A stretch of DNA of 64,000 nucleotides, from assembly GCF_018417535.1 (NCBI RefSeq), contig NZ_CP070978.1:2294001-2358000 (forward strand), written 5' to 3'. This stretch comes from Burkholderia pyrrocinia (lineage in GTDB: Bacteria; Pseudomonadota; Gammaproteobacteria; Burkholderiales; Burkholderiaceae). Shown piece by piece: positions 23,247 to 62,601 of the stretch. The translations under genes and the position numbers were made by a program. Positions within the stretch are counted from its first letter, which is position 1, and every line of letters starts with the position of its first letter. The notes under the pieces were generated by a model, which was not told the origin of the DNA, did no database searches, and saw only the letters and a list, made by a program, of their open reading frames with translations.

Positions 23247-24650
23247 CTACCGCTGGGTCAGCATCATGTACATCTGGACCACGACGTCCGGCGAGAACGT
23301 GAACGGCACCCAGCCGTAGCCCGTGTGGCGGGCGACCAGCAGGCGGTCGCCGTTCGACTGCTTCTGCACGGCCATCATCGGGTTCTTCGTCGTCACGAAA
23401 CGCCAGCCGGCCGGGATGCCGGGCGGCGGCTCCGGCTGCATCGACGCGCGCGCATGCGCGAGTTCCTCGATCAACTGACCCAGTTGCTCCGGATGCAGCG
23501 TGATCGATTCGCCGTTGACGGTCAGCGTGAGTTCGTTCTGCGTCGGACGCGACACGTGCAGCGTCGATTTGTCGGCCGGGTTGGCGGCGGCTTCGGTTTC
23601 GGTCGCGGCTTCGGCTTGCGCCGTCGCGACGATCGCGGTTCCGGCGTCGGCCGCCGCATCGGCTACATCGGCTACATCGGCCGCAGCCGGCGCGGCTGCG
23701 TTCACAGCCGGTTCCGCCGCCGGCGTGTCCGCCGGTGCCGGTTCGACGACTTCGGCGGCAACGGCCGTGGCGGCCATTGCGTTCGTCGCGGCTTCCTTGA
23801 CGACGGCCTCGACCAGCGCTTCGGCGTCGGCGATGGCCTTCGCGTGGTGCTGCGCGGCGGCCTCGGCCTGCGCGATCGCTTCGGTATGGCGCTGCGTGAC
23901 GGCTTCGGCCTGCGCGGTGGCGTCGGCGTGGCGTTGCGCGGCGGCTTCGGCCTGCGCGATCGCCGCGGCGTGACGCTGCGTGACGGCTTCCGCCTCGGCG
24001 GTGGCGTCGGCATGACGCTGCGCGGCGGCCTGCGTTTCGGCGATCGCTTCCGTGTGACGCTGCGCGAGCGCTTCGGCCTCGGCGATCGCGGCCGTGTGAC
24101 GCTGCGTGGCCGCGTCGGCCTCGGCGATCGCTTGCGCGTGACGTTTCGCGGCGGCCTCGGCTTCGGCGGTCGCGGTCGCATGGCGCTGCGCGGCCGCATC
24201 GGCTTCGGTCGCGGCGGCGTAATGGCGTTGCGCGGCGGCCTCCGCTTCGGCGATCGCGGCTGCGTGACGTTGCGATGCGGCTTCGGCATCCGCGTGACGT
24301 TGCGCGAGCGCTTCGGTCAGTGCGGTGGCTTCCGCGTGGCGCTGCACGGCGGCTTCGGCTTGCGCGGCGGCATCCGTATGACGGTGGGCGGCGGCTTCGG
24401 CGGTGGCGGTCGCTTCGGCGTGGCGCTGCTGCGCGGCTTCGGCCTCGGCGGCTGCCGCCGTGTGGCGTTGCGCGGCGGCCTGCGCTGCGGTTTCCGCGTC
24501 GGCGTGACGTTGCGCGGCGGCCTGGGCTTGCGCTGCTGCGGCGCGCGCGAAGGCTTCCGCGCTGCGGGCCGCCTGCTGCGCGGCGTGGTGATCGTGGAGG
24601 AGCTGATCGACGCCCGCGTTGAGCGAATCGATCTGATCGTTCAGGTTCAT
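23247..24650 (-). CDS. Alanine-rich coiled-coil repeat protein, unknown function
   Basis: A 467-residue protein in three parts. Residues 1-45 are a helical cap (NLNDQIDSLNAGVDQLLHDHH). About residues 46-280 hold 17 tandem units of consensus QRHxxAxAxAEAAx, sixteen of 14 residues and one of only 10 (a four-residue deletion, which would make a stammer in the coiled coil). Two heptads per unit predict a long alpha-helical coiled coil with a His line along one face. An Ala/Pro-rich linker follows, then a C-terminal domain of about 100 residues (LTLTVNGESITLHPEQLGQLIEEL ending PDVVVQMYMMLTQR). The gene sits between hpnB and hpnA. No signal peptide. I do not recognise the family. Confidence 0.75.
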   Translation of the reverse strand: MNLNDQIDSLNAGVDQLLHDHHAAQQAARSAEAFARAAAAQAQAAAQRHADAETAAQAAAQRHTAAAAEAEAAQQRHAEATATAEAAAHRHTDAAAQAEAAVQRHAEATALTEALAQRHADAEAASQRHAAAIAEAEAAAQRHYAAATEADAAAQRHATATAEAEAAAKRHAQAIAEADAATQRHTAAIAEAEALAQRHTEAIAETQAAAQRHADATAEAEAVTQRHAAAIAQAEAAAQRHADATAQAEAVTQRHTEAIAQAEAAAQHHAKAIADAEALVEAVVKEAATNAMAATAVAAEVVEPAPADTPAAEPAVNAAAPAAADVADVADAAADAGTAIVATAQAEAATETEAAANPADKSTLHVSRPTQNELTLTVNGESITLHPEQLGQLIEELAHARASMQPEPPPGIPAGWRFVTTKNPMMAVQKQSNGDRLLVARHTGYGWVPFTFSPDVVVQMYMMLTQR

Positions 24651-28753: not shown

Positions 28754-28960
28754 TCAGTGAGGTGAGCCGATACGGGAGCGGGGAACGGCGGTCGCTTCGT
28801 CGGATTCGGCGTCGTCGCGGTCGTCCGGCGCCGGGTCGTCGTGTTCCGCGAGCACCGCGTCGACTTCGGCTGCGGCCCGGGCGGCGCGTATCGCGGTGCA
28901 GCGCTGAGCGTGCCGGATGTCCGACAGTATCCTCAGGAGCCGCGTGGTCTTGCTTTTCAT
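28754..28960 (-). CDS. Small hypothetical protein
   Basis: A 68-residue protein: a basic helical N-terminus (KSKTTRLLRILSDIRHAQR) and an acidic Asp/Ala-rich C-terminal half. A strong AGGGGAA ribosome site lies before ATG 28960, which supports translation. Downstream of and same-stranded with the POT transporter (gap 117 bp). Family not recognised. Confidence 0.55.
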   Translation of the reverse strand: MKSKTTRLLRILSDIRHAQRCTAIRAARAAAEVDAVLAEHDDPAPDDRDDAESDEATAVPRSRIGSPH

Positions 28961-51004: not shown

Positions 51005-51307
51005 ATGGCGACCTACAGGCAACTGACCGCGCAGCTCGAACGGCTTCAGCAAAAGATCGACAAGGAACGCGAAAAGGCGATTGCCGACGCGATTGCCGAT
51101 ATCCGCGCGAAAATCGACGAATACGACATTACGCCGGAAGAGCTCGGTTTTCTTCCGGTAGGGTCCGCCGCCGCTGCCACCGCGAAGCCGAAGCGCACGT
51201 TGCCACCGAAATACCTGAACCCGAAGACGGGCGAAACATGGAGTGGCCGCGGGCGGGCGCCGGCGTGGCTGGGCAAGAACCGCGGGCGTTTCCTGATCAA
51301 GGACTGA
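51005..51307 (+). CDS. H-NS family nucleoid-associated protein
   Basis: A 100-residue H-NS-type protein. Residues 1-45 form the coiled-coil oligomerisation domain (YRQLTAQLERLQQKIDKEREKAIADAIADIRAKIDEYDITPEELGF). After a short Ala-rich linker, the DNA-binding domain (about 60-100) holds KYLNPKTGETWSGRGRAPAWLG, the GRGRxP loop that enters AT-rich minor grooves. Such proteins silence horizontally acquired and AT-rich genes. A composite repeat element begins in the first base after its stop codon and a terminator follows at 51342. Confidence 0.92.
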   Translation: MATYRQLTAQLERLQQKIDKEREKAIADAIADIRAKIDEYDITPEELGFLPVGSAAAATAKPKRTLPPKYLNPKTGETWSGRGRAPAWLGKNRGRFLIKD

Positions 51308-51607: not shown

Positions 51608-51647
51608 TTCCCGAAAATGCTCACCATGGCTCCTGTAAATCCTCACC
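51608..51647 (+). repeat. Two further CTCCCG-N6-CTCACC elements
   Basis: TTCCCG-AAAATG-CTCACC at 51608-51625 and CTCCTG-TAAATC-CTCACC at 51630-51647, 22 bp apart. The first starts exactly 300 bp after the copy at 51308, in the same orientation. Confidence 0.65.
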
Positions 51648-51881
51648 TTCGAGGAAGCGGCGGCAGCGTCGTGCCGCGTGGCTTGCGGCACGCGGCGATG
51701 CCGGGCCGCGCGTGTATTGCAGGTCCATGGTGCGAGCGTTGACGTTCGTCGGGTAGTCGGCCGTTCGGCATATAGGCAGCCGCATGCGCTTCGCCTATGC
51801 TTGGGGTTCGCGTCGAGCGGCGCACGGCAGGTTCGTGCCGTATGCCGCTCGGGTCGTGTTTCGTTACCGCAGGGAGCCGAT

Positions 51882-54239
51882 GTGACCGTTCGCCATCTCG
51901 ATGCGTTGTTCCAGCCCAAGTCCGTTGCGGTCGTCGGCGCGTCATCGCGCGCGGGCAGTATCGGCGCGATGGTGTGGTCGCGCGTGCTCGACGGCGCGTT
52001 CGACGGGCCCGTGTGGCCCGTCAATCCGAAATATCGCGAGCTGAACGGGCATGCGGTCGTCGCCGACGTCGACCGGCTGCCCGCACCGCCGTCGGTTGCC
52101 GTGATTTGCACGCCACCCGCGACCTGGGCCGGCATCGTGCGCAAGCTCGGCGAACTCGGCACGCGCGTCGCGGTGATCGTCGGTGAGGCGCGCACGGATG
52201 CCGATCGCACCGCGCTCGATCGCACGCTGAAGGCGGCGAAGCCGTTCGTGCTCCGTATCGTCGGGCCCGGCAGCCTCGGCGTGCTGTCGCCCGCGCGACA
52301 TGCGCATTTCGGCGCACCGGCCTATACGGCGCGTTCGGGCGGCGTCGCATGGGTGTCGCAATCGAATGCGTTGACGAACGCGGTGCTCGGCTGGGCCGAT
52401 GCGCGGGGCCTCGGCTTTTCGCATGTCGTCGCGCTCGGCAGCGAGTCCGACGTCGATGCGGGCGACGTGCTCGACTATCTTGCGAGCGATCCCGGCACGC
52501 GCGCGATCCTGCTCGAACTCGATTCCGTGCGCGCGGCACGCAAGTTCATGTCGGCCGCGCGCGCGGCCGCCCGCAACAAGCCGGTGCTTGCGTTGCGCAC
52601 CGGGCGCGCCGATCCCGGCGACGCGCTCTATACGGCGGCGTTCCAGCGCGCGGGGATGGTGCGCGTCGATGCGCTCGACGATCTGCTCGACGAGATCGAG
52701 ACGCTCGGCGTCGGCCGTGTCACGGCGCGCGGCGCGGCGACGCTCGTGACGAGCGACGCGGGCGTCGCGAAACTCGCGGTCGATGCGGTCGCGGAAGTGC
52801 GCGTCGGGCTGGCCGACTGGTCGCCGGCGGCAACGTCGGCCGTATCGGCGGCTTTGCCGCATCTGGCTGCGCCCGGCAATCCGCTGACGCTGGGCGACGA
52901 TGCGCGCCCCGAGCACTTCTCCGCGGCGATCAAGGCGCTCGCGCCGTTCCCGCAAACAGGCACGCTGTTCGTCGTCCATTCGACGTCCCACAGCGCGCCG
53001 GCGGGTTCGGTTGCGCGCACGCTGATTGAATCGCGGCAGTACGCGCATCGCGGCATCCTCGCGTGTTTCTTCGGCGCGGTCGACGCGGCGACGCGCGATG
53101 CGCTGCACGCGAACGGCATCCCGGTGTACACGACGCCGCAGCGGCTCGCGCGCGCGTATGCGCGTCTCGTCGACTACAGTCTCGGGCGGCAACTGCTGAT
53201 GCAGACGCCCGAGGGTACGCCGCTGCAGCCGGCCGAGTGCGTTGCATCCGCGCAGGTCGACGCGCGCCGGATGGTCGAAGCGGGCCAGCATGAACTGGCC
53301 GGCGATGCCGCGCTGCGCTGGCTGTCCCATTTCGGTCTGCAGGGCGAGCAGGCAGGCGAGCCGGCCGGCGCGAAAGTCGTCGATGTCACGGTCGACATGT
53401 ACGACGATTCGAACTTCGGTCCGGTGTTTCGCTATGCCGTGCCGCCGGCGGACGGCGTATCGGCGCCGTTCGTCGTCTACGGCCTGCCGCCGCTGAACAC
53501 CGTGCTTGCGCGCGCGGTGATGGAACGCTCGCCGTATGCGCGCAGCACGCCTGTCGAGCCGACGCTCGACGCGTTGACGGCGTTGTCGCAGGTCGTCTGC
53601 GACGTGCGCGAAGTCGTTGCGATGTCCGTCACGCTACGCGTGCGCACCGACCGCGCGCAGGTGATCGCGCCGCGCATCACGCTGGCTGCGGGGCGCAGCC
53701 GGCTTGCGATCATGCCGTATCCGCGCCACCTCGAGCAGACGCTCGAGTGGCGCGGCGAGACGGTGACGATCCGTCCGATCCGTCCGGAAGACGAGGCCGC
53801 GCACAACGAACTGCTCGGTGCGATGACGCCGGACGATCTGCGGATGCGTTTTTTCGGCGCGGTGCGCAGCTTCGATCATTCGCAGGTGGCGCGCATGACG
53901 CAGATCGACTACGACCGTGAGATGGCCTTCATCGTGTCGTTCACCGATGTGTCGGGGCGCGACCACACGCTCGCGGTCGCGCGCGCGGTCGCCGATCCCG
54001 ACAACGAGACGGCGGAGTTCGCGATCGCGGTGCGGCCCGACCAGAAGGGCAAGGGGCTCGGCCGGCTGATGATGGCCCGCATCATCGACTACGCGCGTTC
54101 GCGCGGAACCGCATGGATGATCGGCGAGGCGCTGCGCGAGAATTCGGCGATGATCTCGCTCGCGAAGTCGTGCGGCTTTGCGGTGTCGACGACCGAGGAG
54201 CCCGGCGTAGTGGGTTTCCGGATGAAGTTGCAGCAGTAG
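51882..54239 (+). CDS. Pat-type protein: acyl-CoA synthetase (NDP-forming)-like with C-terminal GNAT domain
   Basis: A 785-residue protein in the family of protein lysine acetyltransferases Pat/PatZ. It has an N-terminal CoA-binding Rossmann domain (about residues 5-125, QPKSVAVVGASSRAGSIG), ligase domains with shortened loops, a reduced ATP-grasp region (about 470-610) and a GNAT domain (about 623-785, TVTIRPIRPEDE ... RPDQKGKGLGRLMM). The catalytic-His loop of active ligases (ASHTGALAG type) is missing at RTGRADPGDALYTAAF (about 236), as is the ATP-binding VALK...HKSDVGGV stretch. It probably acetylates proteins and uses the dead ligase as a sensor, as known for Pat. GTG start 51882, chosen for the AGGGAG ribosome site and the family N-terminus. 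Confidence 0.86.
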   Translation: MTVRHLDALFQPKSVAVVGASSRAGSIGAMVWSRVLDGAFDGPVWPVNPKYRELNGHAVVADVDRLPAPPSVAVICTPPATWAGIVRKLGELGTRVAVIVGEARTDADRTALDRTLKAAKPFVLRIVGPGSLGVLSPARHAHFGAPAYTARSGGVAWVSQSNALTNAVLGWADARGLGFSHVVALGSESDVDAGDVLDYLASDPGTRAILLELDSVRAARKFMSAARAAARNKPVLALRTGRADPGDALYTAAFQRAGMVRVDALDDLLDEIETLGVGRVTARGAATLVTSDAGVAKLAVDAVAEVRVGLADWSPAATSAVSAALPHLAAPGNPLTLGDDARPEHFSAAIKALAPFPQTGTLFVVHSTSHSAPAGSVARTLIESRQYAHRGILACFFGAVDAATRDALHANGIPVYTTPQRLARAYARLVDYSLGRQLLMQTPEGTPLQPAECVASAQVDARRMVEAGQHELAGDAALRWLSHFGLQGEQAGEPAGAKVVDVTVDMYDDSNFGPVFRYAVPPADGVSAPFVVYGLPPLNTVLARAVMERSPYARSTPVEPTLDALTALSQVVCDVREVVAMSVTLRVRTDRAQVIAPRITLAAGRSRLAIMPYPRHLEQTLEWRGETVTIRPIRPEDEAAHNELLGAMTPDDLRMRFFGAVRSFDHSQVARMTQIDYDREMAFIVSFTDVSGRDHTLAVARAVADPDNETAEFAIAVRPDQKGKGLGRLMMARIIDYARSRGTAWMIGEALRENSAMISLAKSCGFAVSTTEEPGVVGFRMKLQQ

Positions 54240-54891
54240 CGTCTGTCGGCTGCGTGAAGCGTGGAGACATCGCATGCAGTCGATGTCTTCGAGATCCTGT
54301 CATGCCGAGAGTGTGTCAATTCAGGAATGCAGAGCATTTGAACCTGCCTCTTGCACGAAGCGCCGGTGAATGTCCTGGATCCGTTCACACGCGATATCGA
54401 CACTCCCGCAGCACCGGAAGACGCCTGCGGCGTTCCACGTTATCTGCTCCGCACGGCCGCTTCACGCGATGTGTCCACACGTATTCGCCATCGTATTTCA
54501 GCCTCGCCGATCCGGAATTACCACAAAGGTGAGATTTTTCGGGAGCCGCGAGTGAGCTTTTCCGGGGAAGCGTGGTGAGCCGATACGGGAGCGTTCGGTG
54601 AGCCTTCCCGGGAGCGGCCGGTGAGCACTTGCGGGAGATGCTGGTGAGCCTTTCCGGGGCACGTTGGTGAGGGTCTGCGGGAGAGTTCGGTGAGGACATT
54701 CGGGAGACTTTGGTGAGGGTCTCCAGGAGCCTTGGGTGAGCTTTTTCGGGAGGCATTGGTGAGCGCTTGCGGGACACCAAGGTGAGACTTTTCGGGAGCA
54801 TGCGGATGCACGGCTCCCGAGAGCGCGGCGCCGGCCAATGCCGGCGTCACACACGGGTGCGGACACGCATGAACCGTGCCCGCGGTCAGAT
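54240..54891. other. Intergenic region with the 23-bp tandem array
   Basis: 652 bp between the Pat-type gene and the minus-strand H-NS-like gene. Bases 54240-54527 show nothing recognisable. From 54528 to 54803 lies the twelve-unit array. In 54804-54891 are a CGCCGGC-CAAT-GCCGGCG hairpin (about 54828-54845) and a GCTCCCGA (54813-54820) that can pair with the last unit's TCGGGAGC (54792-54799). No canonical terminator is seen behind the H-NS-like gene. Confidence 0.75.
54528..54803 (+). repeat. Array of twelve 23-bp units GGTGAG-N6-CGGGAG-N5
   Basis: Units begin at 54528 + 23n for n = 0 to 11, without a single phase slip. GGTGAG is exact in 11 of 12 units (the second has AGTGAG). CGGGAG is exact in 8 of 12, with one or two changes in the rest (CGGGGA, CGGGGC, CAGGAG, CGGGAC). 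The N6 and N5 spacers differ from unit to unit. On the minus strand, the direction of the neighbouring H-NS-like gene, each unit reads CTCCCG-N6-CTCACC. All three minus-strand frames are free of stop codons through the array, as the motif contains no stop. Confidence 0.93.
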
Positions 54892-55434
54892 TCAGGCAAC
54901 GAGTTTCGACGCCGCGTCGTTCACCTGGTCGCGTGAAATCGCGAGTTCCTCGAGGTGCGGATCGGCATAGACGGCGCCGGTTTCGCGCTCGAGGCGGGCG
55001 ATCGTCAGCGCGCAACGCGCGGTGTCCTTCGGCATCGCGATGAAACGCTTGACCGACTCGCCGGACGTGAATGCTTCGAACAGCGCACCGCGCACGTCGT
55101 CCGGGAGCGTCTTGGTCCACTGGTACGGCTTGCCGTTGAACGTGATCGACGGCGGCAGCGTGCGTTCCTTCTTGGTCGCGGTGATGAGCCCGTAGGTGCG
55201 GGCCGCGTCGCCGATCTGCTCGGGCGAGAAGAGTTCGTCGGGCGTGATGTCGAACTGCTCGATGTAGTTCTCGATCGCCTGCATCGCGGCGGCACGATCG
55301 TCGCGCTTCTTCTGCGCGCGCGCGACGATATCGCGCAGCTCGTCCGCCTCCTCGGGCGTGATCGTGAAGCTTGCCTGCTTCTGCTGAAGTTCGGAGAAAC
55401 GCTGGAATTCTTGATCGTTCAGAAGTTTGGCCAT
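54892..55434 (-). CDS. Divergent H-NS-like protein with extended C-terminus
   Basis: A 180-residue protein. The helical region to about residue 60 (EFQRFSELQQKQASF...) ends in IEQFDITPDELFSPEQ, which closely parallels IDEYDITPEELGFLP of the H-NS protein at 51005. Next comes ERTLPPSITFNGKPYQW (about 88-104), parallel to KRTLPPKYLNPKTGETW in H-NS, but the GRGRAP loop is missing. About 75 further residues follow, with a helical segment (DTARCALTIARLERETGAVY). I read it as an H-NS relative whose DNA-binding end has changed. The start ATG 55434 is where the homology begins. The 23-bp array lies 88 bp behind its stop. Confidence 0.65.
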   Translation of the reverse strand: MAKLLNDQEFQRFSELQQKQASFTITPEEADELRDIVARAQKKRDDRAAAMQAIENYIEQFDITPDELFSPEQIGDAARTYGLITATKKERTLPPSITFNGKPYQWTKTLPDDVRGALFEAFTSGESVKRFIAMPKDTARCALTIARLERETGAVYADPHLEELAISRDQVNDAASKLVA

Positions 55435-55616
55435 GACATCCATCGGACACGACGGCCGTGACAACCGGCCGCCGTAGTTTTTGAGAGGGCCGCTATTCTA
55501 GCGTAGCGCGGTGAGCGCACGATATGGCACCGCGTATCGTGCACTGCACGGGCATCGCGCGCGACCGGGTACGGCGCAACTGCGCCGCGCCCGGTGCGCT
55601 TCGTCGAACCCGCGCG

Positions 55617-58091: not shown

Positions 58092-58475
58092 TCACACGAC
58101 GTTGTCGAGTTCGCAATGTGCTTCGAGCCGATACCCGTCGGGATCGACGACGAACGCCGCGTAGTAGCCGGGACCGTAATGCTCGCGCTTGCCGGGCCCG
58201 CCGTTGTCCTGACCGCCGTGCTCGAGCGCGGCGCGGTAGAACGCGTCGACCTCGACGGGCGACGCGGCCTTGAACGACAGGTGCAGCCCCGATTCGGGAT
58301 CGGCGGCGATGGGGCGGGCAGCGTGCTGCAACCACAGCTCCGGTTCGGTCGTGCCGTACCCGATGGAGCCGTCGTCGCTATACAGCCGCTTGTAGCCGAG
58401 CGCGCCGAGCGTGCTGTCGTAGAACGTGCGGCTGCGGCCGATGTGGGCGACGCCGAAGGAAAGGTGATCGATCAT
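58092..58475 (-). CDS. VOC family protein (glyoxalase/bleomycin resistance type)
   Basis: A 127-residue vicinal-oxygen-chelate protein of one chain with two beta-alpha-beta-beta-beta units. It begins IDHLSFGVAHIGRSRTFYDSTLGALGYKRL and ends with VVDPDGYRLEAHCE. The metal-binding His and Glu (IDHLS at the start, LHLSFKA in the middle and YRLEA near the end) are as in this group. An AAGGAG ribosome site sits before ATG 58475. Its first 31 codons are duplicated upstream. Divergent from a CGNR gene. Confidence 0.88.
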   Translation of the reverse strand: MIDHLSFGVAHIGRSRTFYDSTLGALGYKRLYSDDGSIGYGTTEPELWLQHAARPIAADPESGLHLSFKAASPVEVDAFYRAALEHGGQDNGGPGKREHYGPGYYAAFVVDPDGYRLEAHCELDNVV

Positions 58476-58692
58476 CTGTTGGCTCCTTGAATTGAAGGGG
58501 GACCTCAGTGCAGCAAACCCGCTTATAAGCACCATGCCAGCCGCTTGTAGCGGAGCGCGCCGAGCGTGCTGTCGTAGAACGCGCAGTTGCGGTCGTTGTG
58601 GATAACTCCGCGGGAAAGACGATCGATCATCTGTGGCTCCTTGAACTGAAGGGGGGACGTCAGTGCAGCAAACCTTTTTAACCACCATGCTG
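58383..58692. repeat. 155-bp direct tandem duplication
   Basis: Bases 58383-58537 and 58538-58692 are diverged copies of one segment, offset exactly 155 bp over the coding part (ATG 58475 against 58630). Shared blocks include the ccgcttgtag coding stretch, the gatcgatcatctg start region, the ctccttgaa ribosome site and cagtgcagcaaacc. The copies differ by several substitutions and small indels. Confidence 0.85.
58538..58630 (-). pseudogene. Fragment of the VOC gene 5' end
   Basis: A duplicate of the first 31 codons of the VOC gene (beginning IDRLSRGVIHNDRN, compared with IDHLSFGVAHIGRS) with its own ribosome site, cut off at the duplication junction. It lies in a different frame from the intact gene and cannot give a functional protein. 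Confidence 0.8.
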
Positions 58693-62503: not shown

Positions 62504-62601
62504 GCTTTGCATGGGACCGAACCAGGCGCTAAAGCGCCAAGTCCGGTCGACAGCTTTGCATGGGACCGCACTAGGCGCTGAAGCGCCAAGTCCGGTCGAC
62601 A
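62504..62601. repeat. 49-bp tandem direct repeat with nested hairpins
   Basis: Two 49-bp copies (62504-62552 and 62553-62601), differing at a few bases, lie between prpB and prpC. Each begins GCTTTGCATGGGACCG and ends GTCCGGTCGACA. Inside each, GACCG, ACT (ACC in copy one) and GGCGC pair with GCGCC, AGT and CGGTC around a 4-nt loop, giving a long near-perfect hairpin. Confidence 0.9.

Follow-up and report, generated by a model that had tools for sequence, protein, structure and literature searches.

We analyzed a 64,000 bp stretch of the Burkholderia pyrrocinia genome (contig NZ_CP070978.1, positions 2,294,001–2,358,000 of the forward strand; hereafter, the window), which contains an intergenic array of twelve tandem 23 bp repeats. 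The repeat unit is the origin iteron of chromosome 2 (c2); the array locus is conserved in most of the genus and, in the 29 genomes for which the distance was measured, lies close to the c2 origin. Judged by its sequence, the array is almost certainly a row of sites for c2 Rep, the plasmid-type (Rep_3) initiator of this chromosome. Our preferred explanation, which we consider probable, is that it forms a remote cluster of Rep sites that limits c2 re-firing by titration and/or handcuffing.

The array and the chromosome 2 origin

The array lies on the plus strand in a single orientation, each unit having the form GGTGAG-N6-CGGGA(G)-N5 (Table 1). Units start at 54528, 54551 and so on to 54781, and every step in the window is exactly 23 bp; the twelve-unit array proposed at 54528–54803 from the letters of the window alone (the original prediction) is thus borne out. 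The first hexamer, GGTGAG, is exact in 11 of the 12 units (unit 2 reads AGTGAG), while CGGGAG is exact in eight (units 2, 6, 9 and 11 are off by one or two bases). A genome-wide search with the 18-mer GGTGAGNNTTTNCGGGAG, allowing up to two mismatches, returned 50 matches in 8.54 Mb, against three for a reversed-pattern control. Two earlier claims need amendment. The phasing, described as strict, is exact in the window, but relatives' arrays contain 22, 24 or 25 bp steps besides the 23 bp phase. The spacers, described as freely varying, are not so: across 503 units, T at unit position 11 is conserved at 92%, and positions 9 and 10 are T in 63% each.

Forty of the 50 genomic matches fall within a 172 kb segment (C2:2,176,342–2,348,798) that spans both the origin and the array, and 17 of these 40 lie at C2:2,193,892–2,195,182, directly upstream of rep. 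This gene (L090:3319–4686) encodes a 455-amino-acid Rep protein with Pfam matches to Rep3_N (E 5.8e-12) and Rep3_C (E 6.9e-10); its best sequence match in the Protein Data Bank is the R6K pi protein (2NRA, E 0.0072). It is followed by parB and parA, and the gene cluster sits on the same contig as the array, 153 kb away. The c2 parS motif occurs at L090:6624–7304 beside parA, and is absent from the window at up to three mismatches. Within the 1.5 kb upstream of rep there are 18 iteron units in one orientation (at most one mismatch in 11 core bases). These origin iterons are irregularly spaced, unlike the strict tandem phase of the array.

The correspondence between array and origin was examined with an independent weight matrix, made from 418 origin iterons of 23 other Burkholderia loci with the B. 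pyrrocinia genome left out. This matrix ranks 16 window sites at the top (scores 7.1–37.4): the 12 array units and four lone sites. The lowest of the 16 is unit 2, at 7.1, and the next best place in the 64 kb scores 2.1; a matrix that includes the B. pyrrocinia genome likewise recovers all 12 array units. The array repeats are therefore the same in motif as the cognate c2 origin repeats, with a Rep_3 gene on the same replicon, and we infer that Rep binds the array. The original prediction had offered iterons for an unknown protein as one possibility; the motif class was right, and the protein can now, with high probability on sequence grounds, be named as the c2 Rep_3 initiator, whose origin carries about 18 copies. 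Du et al. give ctCCCGAAAAacCTCACCTtt as the c2 iteron consensus for B. cenocepacia J2315 (PMC4948915); its reverse complement is the array unit.

The array has a capped architecture, with strong ends and a weak interior. In the window, the end units score 37.4 and 30.9, unit 10 scores 26.7, and the remaining units 7.1–18.8. The same holds on average in 41 of 45 orthologous arrays (L004, L027, L038 and L041, of irregular structure, were set aside): the mean score is 34.3 for the first unit, 29.2 for the last and 16.4 for inner units, of which 6.4% exceed 25. AA precedes the first unit in 37 of the 41.

Table 1. Coordinates of the array and of associated features in the window
Feature	Position	Strand	Basis or remark
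Remote c2 iteron array, 12 units	54528..54803	+	Pattern search; origin-iteron matrix made without own genome
Left cap (unit 1), a near-perfect c2 iteron scoring 37.4, with AAA before it	54528..54545	+	Matrix
Unit 3, GGTGAGCCGATACGGGAG, nCGATA subtype	54574..54591	+	Also present upstream of rep in the c2 origin and at a lone site
Right cap (unit 12), a near-perfect c2 iteron scoring 30.9	54781..54798	+	Matrix
Lone c2 iteron, score 35.2, directly after H-NS gene stop codon	51308..51325	-	Matrix
Lone c2 iteron, score 28.4, 22 bp from next	51608..51625	-	Matrix
Lone c2 iteron, score 27.3	51630..51647	-	Matrix
Lone c2 iteron, nCGATA subtype, score 23.0	28761..28778	+	Matrix
Convergent left neighbour: CoA-binding / succinyl-CoA-ligase-like protein, C-terminal GNAT domain	51678..54239	+	
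Convergent right neighbour: 181-amino-acid protein, weakly H-NS N-terminal-like	54892..55437	-	
GC-rich inverted repeat, terminator-like, no T run	54828..54847	.	Between array and right neighbour gene

Distribution, conservation and history

Arrays were sought with a two-unit motif (up to one mismatch), four or more matches counting as an array. A first survey found at least four matches in 32 of 37 Burkholderia genomes, and no match of any kind in 24 genomes of other genera. In a larger survey, at least four phased matches were found in 51 of 61 Burkholderia genomes; among 337 other-genus genomes there was no array, 30 having one or two matches and none more (the reversed control gave one match in each of two genomes). 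Of 47 loci fetched (L001–L047), 45 are the array locus, while L017 and L021 are single matches elsewhere; in all 45, a GNAT gene stands on one side and an H-NS-like gene, convergent with it, on the other. The search of Burkholderia that the original prediction had recommended thus finds the array phased in most genomes and, in the loci checked, beside the same neighbours; the outcomes named there as refuting it, namely absence or random phase in close relatives or dispersal as a satellite, are not what is seen. Array-bearing genomes of these two surveys have matches on one strand only, and G027 (one extra match) and G020 (one isolated match) carry matches on other contigs.

Burkholderia genomes without an intact array were read at the same place. 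Ten (G006, G014, G030, G033, G034, G365, G370, G379, G392 and G411) keep one or two units, paired units being 22–34 bp apart. One, G342 (L049), has a decayed array of six scoring sites, in which both strong ends are kept and the inner units have decayed. G205 carries about 20 units, and the arrays of G022 and G031 are partly eroded. Simple repeats of 9 bp (ACGACGCCA-like and ACACGACCA-like) adjoin the two-iteron form in G034 and G006 (L056, L059).

The array, or its short form, lies 97–272 kb from rep (median 153 kb; 29 genomes), on the downstream side in 25 of the 29. Individual distances include ~207 kb in B. cenocepacia CMCC(B)23006, ~162 kb in B. arboris, ~151 kb in B. stagnalis and ~154 kb in B. 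multivorans.

Rep and its iterons are distributed more widely than the array. Rep is present at 92–100% identity in all 30 chosen Burkholderia genomes, and 24 of the 30 loci show 17–19 iteron matches when one core mismatch is permitted; these share a single orientation, and almost all of them are found in the ~1.5 kb preceding rep. Five show 3–7 matches in a short flank, with 16–17 upstream in longer stretches of three of them; the last begins at rep, so that upstream iterons are not countable. Among 30 chosen genomes of other genera, 25 have Rep at 88–93% identity, three have distant relatives only and two have none; 22 of the 25 loci carry 11–19 iteron matches (in some, including one inside rep), and three start at rep. 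The iteron thus dates far back in the family, and the long remote array, in these samples, is an addition made in Burkholderia. A looser search of 35 genomes without a long array (10 Burkholderia, 25 of other genera) detected one to five iteron pairs 21–26 bp apart in 33, many near rep, and none with the control. Iteron pairs outside the origin or at its edge are therefore common in the family; the distinctive feature here is the long phased array.

Sequence variation was assessed in a 46-row alignment of the 45 array loci plus L021 (the G034 origin region, which remains in the alignment's conservation line); p-distances use 38 of the rows, L003, L004, L021, L027, L028, L033, L038 and L041 having been dropped. 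L021 is likewise excluded from the spacer statistics of the 503 units, the unit scores of the 41 arrays and the reading-frame counts. The mean pairwise p-distance between species is 0.025 for GGTGAG, 0.060 for CGGGA and 0.026 for T11, compared with 0.23 for the N6 spacer, 0.449 for the last spacer block, 0.49 for the upstream flank and 0.259 for the downstream flank. Relative to the last spacer block, variability is ~18-fold lower in GGTGAG and ~7-fold lower in CGGGA; the array is more conserved at the bases common to the origin iteron than in its spacers. Spacer identity is 0.66 between orthologous units and 0.38 between different units, so the units have not been homogenised by recent copying. 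That these old units have retained chiefly the bases they have in common points to selection acting on every one of them.

A tree of the Rep gene was built from 40 rows, 30 of them from Burkholderia and 10 from other genera (G342 is not in the tree). In it, the 24 long-array genomes, G022 and G031 with their partly eroded arrays among them, form one branch (100/99), with six short-form genomes as its sister (87/88) and the 10 outgroup rows outside. The simplest history of the long array is a single gain; its interior may have been gained in the long-array branch or lost in the short clade.

Isolated c2 iterons accompany the array. Sites of the 51308 type occur ~3.2–3.5 kb from the array in at least five genomes (G001, G011, G017, G023 and G025, the last two as variants), and GGTGAGGATTTACAGGAG, the 51630 site, ~3 kb from it in at least the same five. 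The subtype GGTGAGnCGATACGGGA is found just upstream of rep (C2:2195070), at lone site 28761 (~26 kb from the array) and in unit 3 (54574); 28 of 30 Burkholderia genomes contain an exact copy at one or more places, and none contains the reversed control. To the left of the origin (C2:2176342–2192289; L089, L090), every lone c2 iteron is on the minus strand, opposite to the origin cluster and the array, which are on the plus strand.

On chromosome 3 (c3), c2-type iterons stand 1.6–1.78 kb upstream of rep in 16 of 20 third replicons (L172–L191), 14 as a pair 33–34 bp apart and two singly, with none in L174, L181, L183 and L184; in B. pyrrocinia (L185) they lie ~1.74–1.78 kb before the gene. These sites are a possible c2-to-c3 link. 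On chromosome 1, no conserved initiator site of the crtS coordination type emerged among the matches listed. The recurrent one-mismatch match GGTGAGGATTTCCGGCAG (G001, G017, G023) lies in conserved DNA with long open reading frames and was judged coding, and the perfect chromosome 1 match of G000 (C1:921115) has no perfect primary-chromosome counterpart among the matches listed for G001, G011, G017, G023 and G025.

Of the flanking genes, the left neighbour's listed GTG start is probably too early. The right neighbour falls below the cutoff of the Pfam H-NS N-terminal model (E 0.016), and a true H-NS-domain gene lies close by at 51005–51307. Elsewhere in the window, tandem repeats occur at 58383–58674 (~2 copies of 155 bp) and 62504–62601 (2 copies of 49 bp), and a 42 bp period (~17 copies, 71% matches) at 23821–24527 is perhaps a repetitive coding region.

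Proposed role and rival explanations

The array bears on the question of what turns a plasmid-like replicon into a chromosome with a single firing in each cell cycle. Under the proposed mechanism, the array would be copied soon after the c2 origin fires. The 12 new sites, together with those of the origin, would then (i) take up free Rep (titration), and/or (ii) pair with origin-bound Rep (handcuffing); either would keep c2 from firing again within that cycle. Rep would probably be taken up first by the strong end units and then, cooperatively and as its level rises, by the weak inner units with their close phasing. In its position, the locus resembles a remote titration locus: it is outside the origin, origin-proximal and conserved (97–272 kb, n=29). 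That the array has a negative role in c2 initiation is a claim towards which we lean, with less assurance than we attach to its identity.

Several observations weigh against this proposal. The fit of the inner units to the origin consensus is poor (mean 16.4, versus 34.3 and 29.2 at the ends), so they may bind weakly, or bind another Rep form. The long array is not essential everywhere, given the one or two units of the sister clade and the decay in G342. The conserved distance to the origin may reflect plain conservation of gene order in this region, and four of the 29 genomes have the array on the opposite side of rep. Finally, the iteron pairs elsewhere in 33 of the 35 genomes without an array indicate that extra-origin sites are not special to this locus.

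Rep could also bind here for a purpose other than limiting initiation, the array serving as a structural tether by which sister regions, or regions close to the origin, are paired, or as a roadblock or insulator between convergent genes. Its place between two convergent genes in the 45 loci checked, and a strict tandem phase that the origin iterons lack, speak for such a role; we nonetheless think it unlikely, since lone iterons also occur elsewhere around the origin, and since both flanking genes are found in the same convergent order in all 14 other-genus loci read, none of which has an intergenic iteron unit between them (13 have nothing scoring above 3; the single match, 12.5 in L078, is inside the GNAT gene). 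The gene pair thus needs no insulator. Less likely still is a functionless relic of an old second origin or origin duplication. While the iterons are those of the origin, and inner units have decayed in G342, the low variability of GGTGAG and CGGGA given above is at odds with loss of function, as is the grouping of the 24 long-array genomes in one branch of the Rep tree. Moreover, rep matches in the B. pyrrocinia genome are limited to C2:2195318 and C3:1062378, hence there is no rep in the window, and the stretch 54201–55000 is free of DnaA boxes (TTWTNCACA).

The original prediction's other suggestions fare worse. An RNA element, whether a sponge for CsrA or a repetitive 3' tail on a neighbouring mRNA, draws on the GGA present on the plus strand of most units, yet the unit is found in both orientations and upstream of rep, Rfam gives no match except a below-threshold SNORD71 outside the array, and folding is no better than that of shuffled sequences on either strand (z -0.79 and +0.99); we regard it as very improbable. 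Least credible of all is binding by the adjacent H-NS-like protein. Its gene adjoins the array in the Burkholderia loci examined, but is spread more widely than the array (66 of 160 family genomes, 8 of 25 genera), stands without an intergenic unit in the 14 other-genus loci, and, as noted, falls below the Pfam cutoff; the motif is explained by the c2 origin instead.

Three further readings were rejected. All three minus-strand frames are open in the window, as had been remarked in support of a non-coding array; among 41 orthologous arrays, however, three, two, one and no minus frames are open in 9, 16, 14 and 2, respectively. This variation indicates that there is no conserved reading frame, and a coding array is rejected because only those nine retain all three. 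The earlier exclusion of a satellite stands, given one-strand matches in array-bearing genomes and spacers conserved by position, as does that of clustered regularly interspaced short palindromic repeats, which have ~24–40 bp repeats and unique spacers rather than a 23 bp period with 5–6 bp spacers common to orthologues.

Returning to titration and handcuffing, a more specific version can be proposed, though only tentatively. In it, the array would be a threshold device: the two near-perfect ends would nucleate Rep, and the ten weak, 23 bp-phased sites would fill cooperatively above a set Rep level, buffering sharply rather than linearly. Such a device may have arisen a single time, inside Burkholderia, through expansion of units between strong ancestral sites or next to them. 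It may work with the lone iterons around the origin and the conserved c2-type pair upstream of c3 rep, linking c2 and c3 firing. As a conserved off-origin iteron array, the element is a concrete, removable candidate for once-per-cycle regulation, and the sister clade, with one or two units at the same place, provides a natural comparison.

Comparison with known systems

Tandem iterons outside the replicating origin are known from plasmids: incA of P1 and incC of F act negatively, by titration and handcuffing. Whereas those loci are beside their origins, the array is ~150 kb off and has strong ends and a weak interior.

For B. cenocepacia J2315, a supplementary legend of Du et al. (2016; PMC4948915) notes that c2 has another cluster of iterons, 140 kb away from its origin. 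This cluster, which we compared by its published description, is almost surely the locus of the present array: the consensus is that of the complementary strand, the chromosome is the same and the distance is similar. The element is therefore not wholly new. In the parts of that source bearing on it, the cluster receives a one-line mention that covers neither phasing and conservation nor evolution and function. In the literature searched, only Du et al. bears on the c2 iteron, and no published function for the array came to light.

The closest parallel in role is on chromosome II of Vibrio cholerae. According to Baek and Chattoraj (2014; PMC3937223), the copy number of an origin plasmid falls in the presence of remote RctB sites, which lie ~40 kb from ori2 and presumably act by titration; titration of the initiator by these sites is likened to datA (PMC3937223; review PMC6090056, in part), and 39-mer-like sites outside ori2 are mentioned in a passage of PMC11711613. 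As described there, these initiator sites resemble the array in lying beyond the plasmid-like origin of a second chromosome, on that chromosome itself and close enough to the origin for early copying. The array differs in comprising 12 units in one tandem phased block, and RctB and c2 Rep are likened by role only. The proposed role also resembles that of Escherichia coli datA in that origin-proximal initiator sites limit re-initiation; datA, however, binds DnaA and promotes DnaA-ATP hydrolysis, whereas the putative initiator at the array is a Rep_3 protein.
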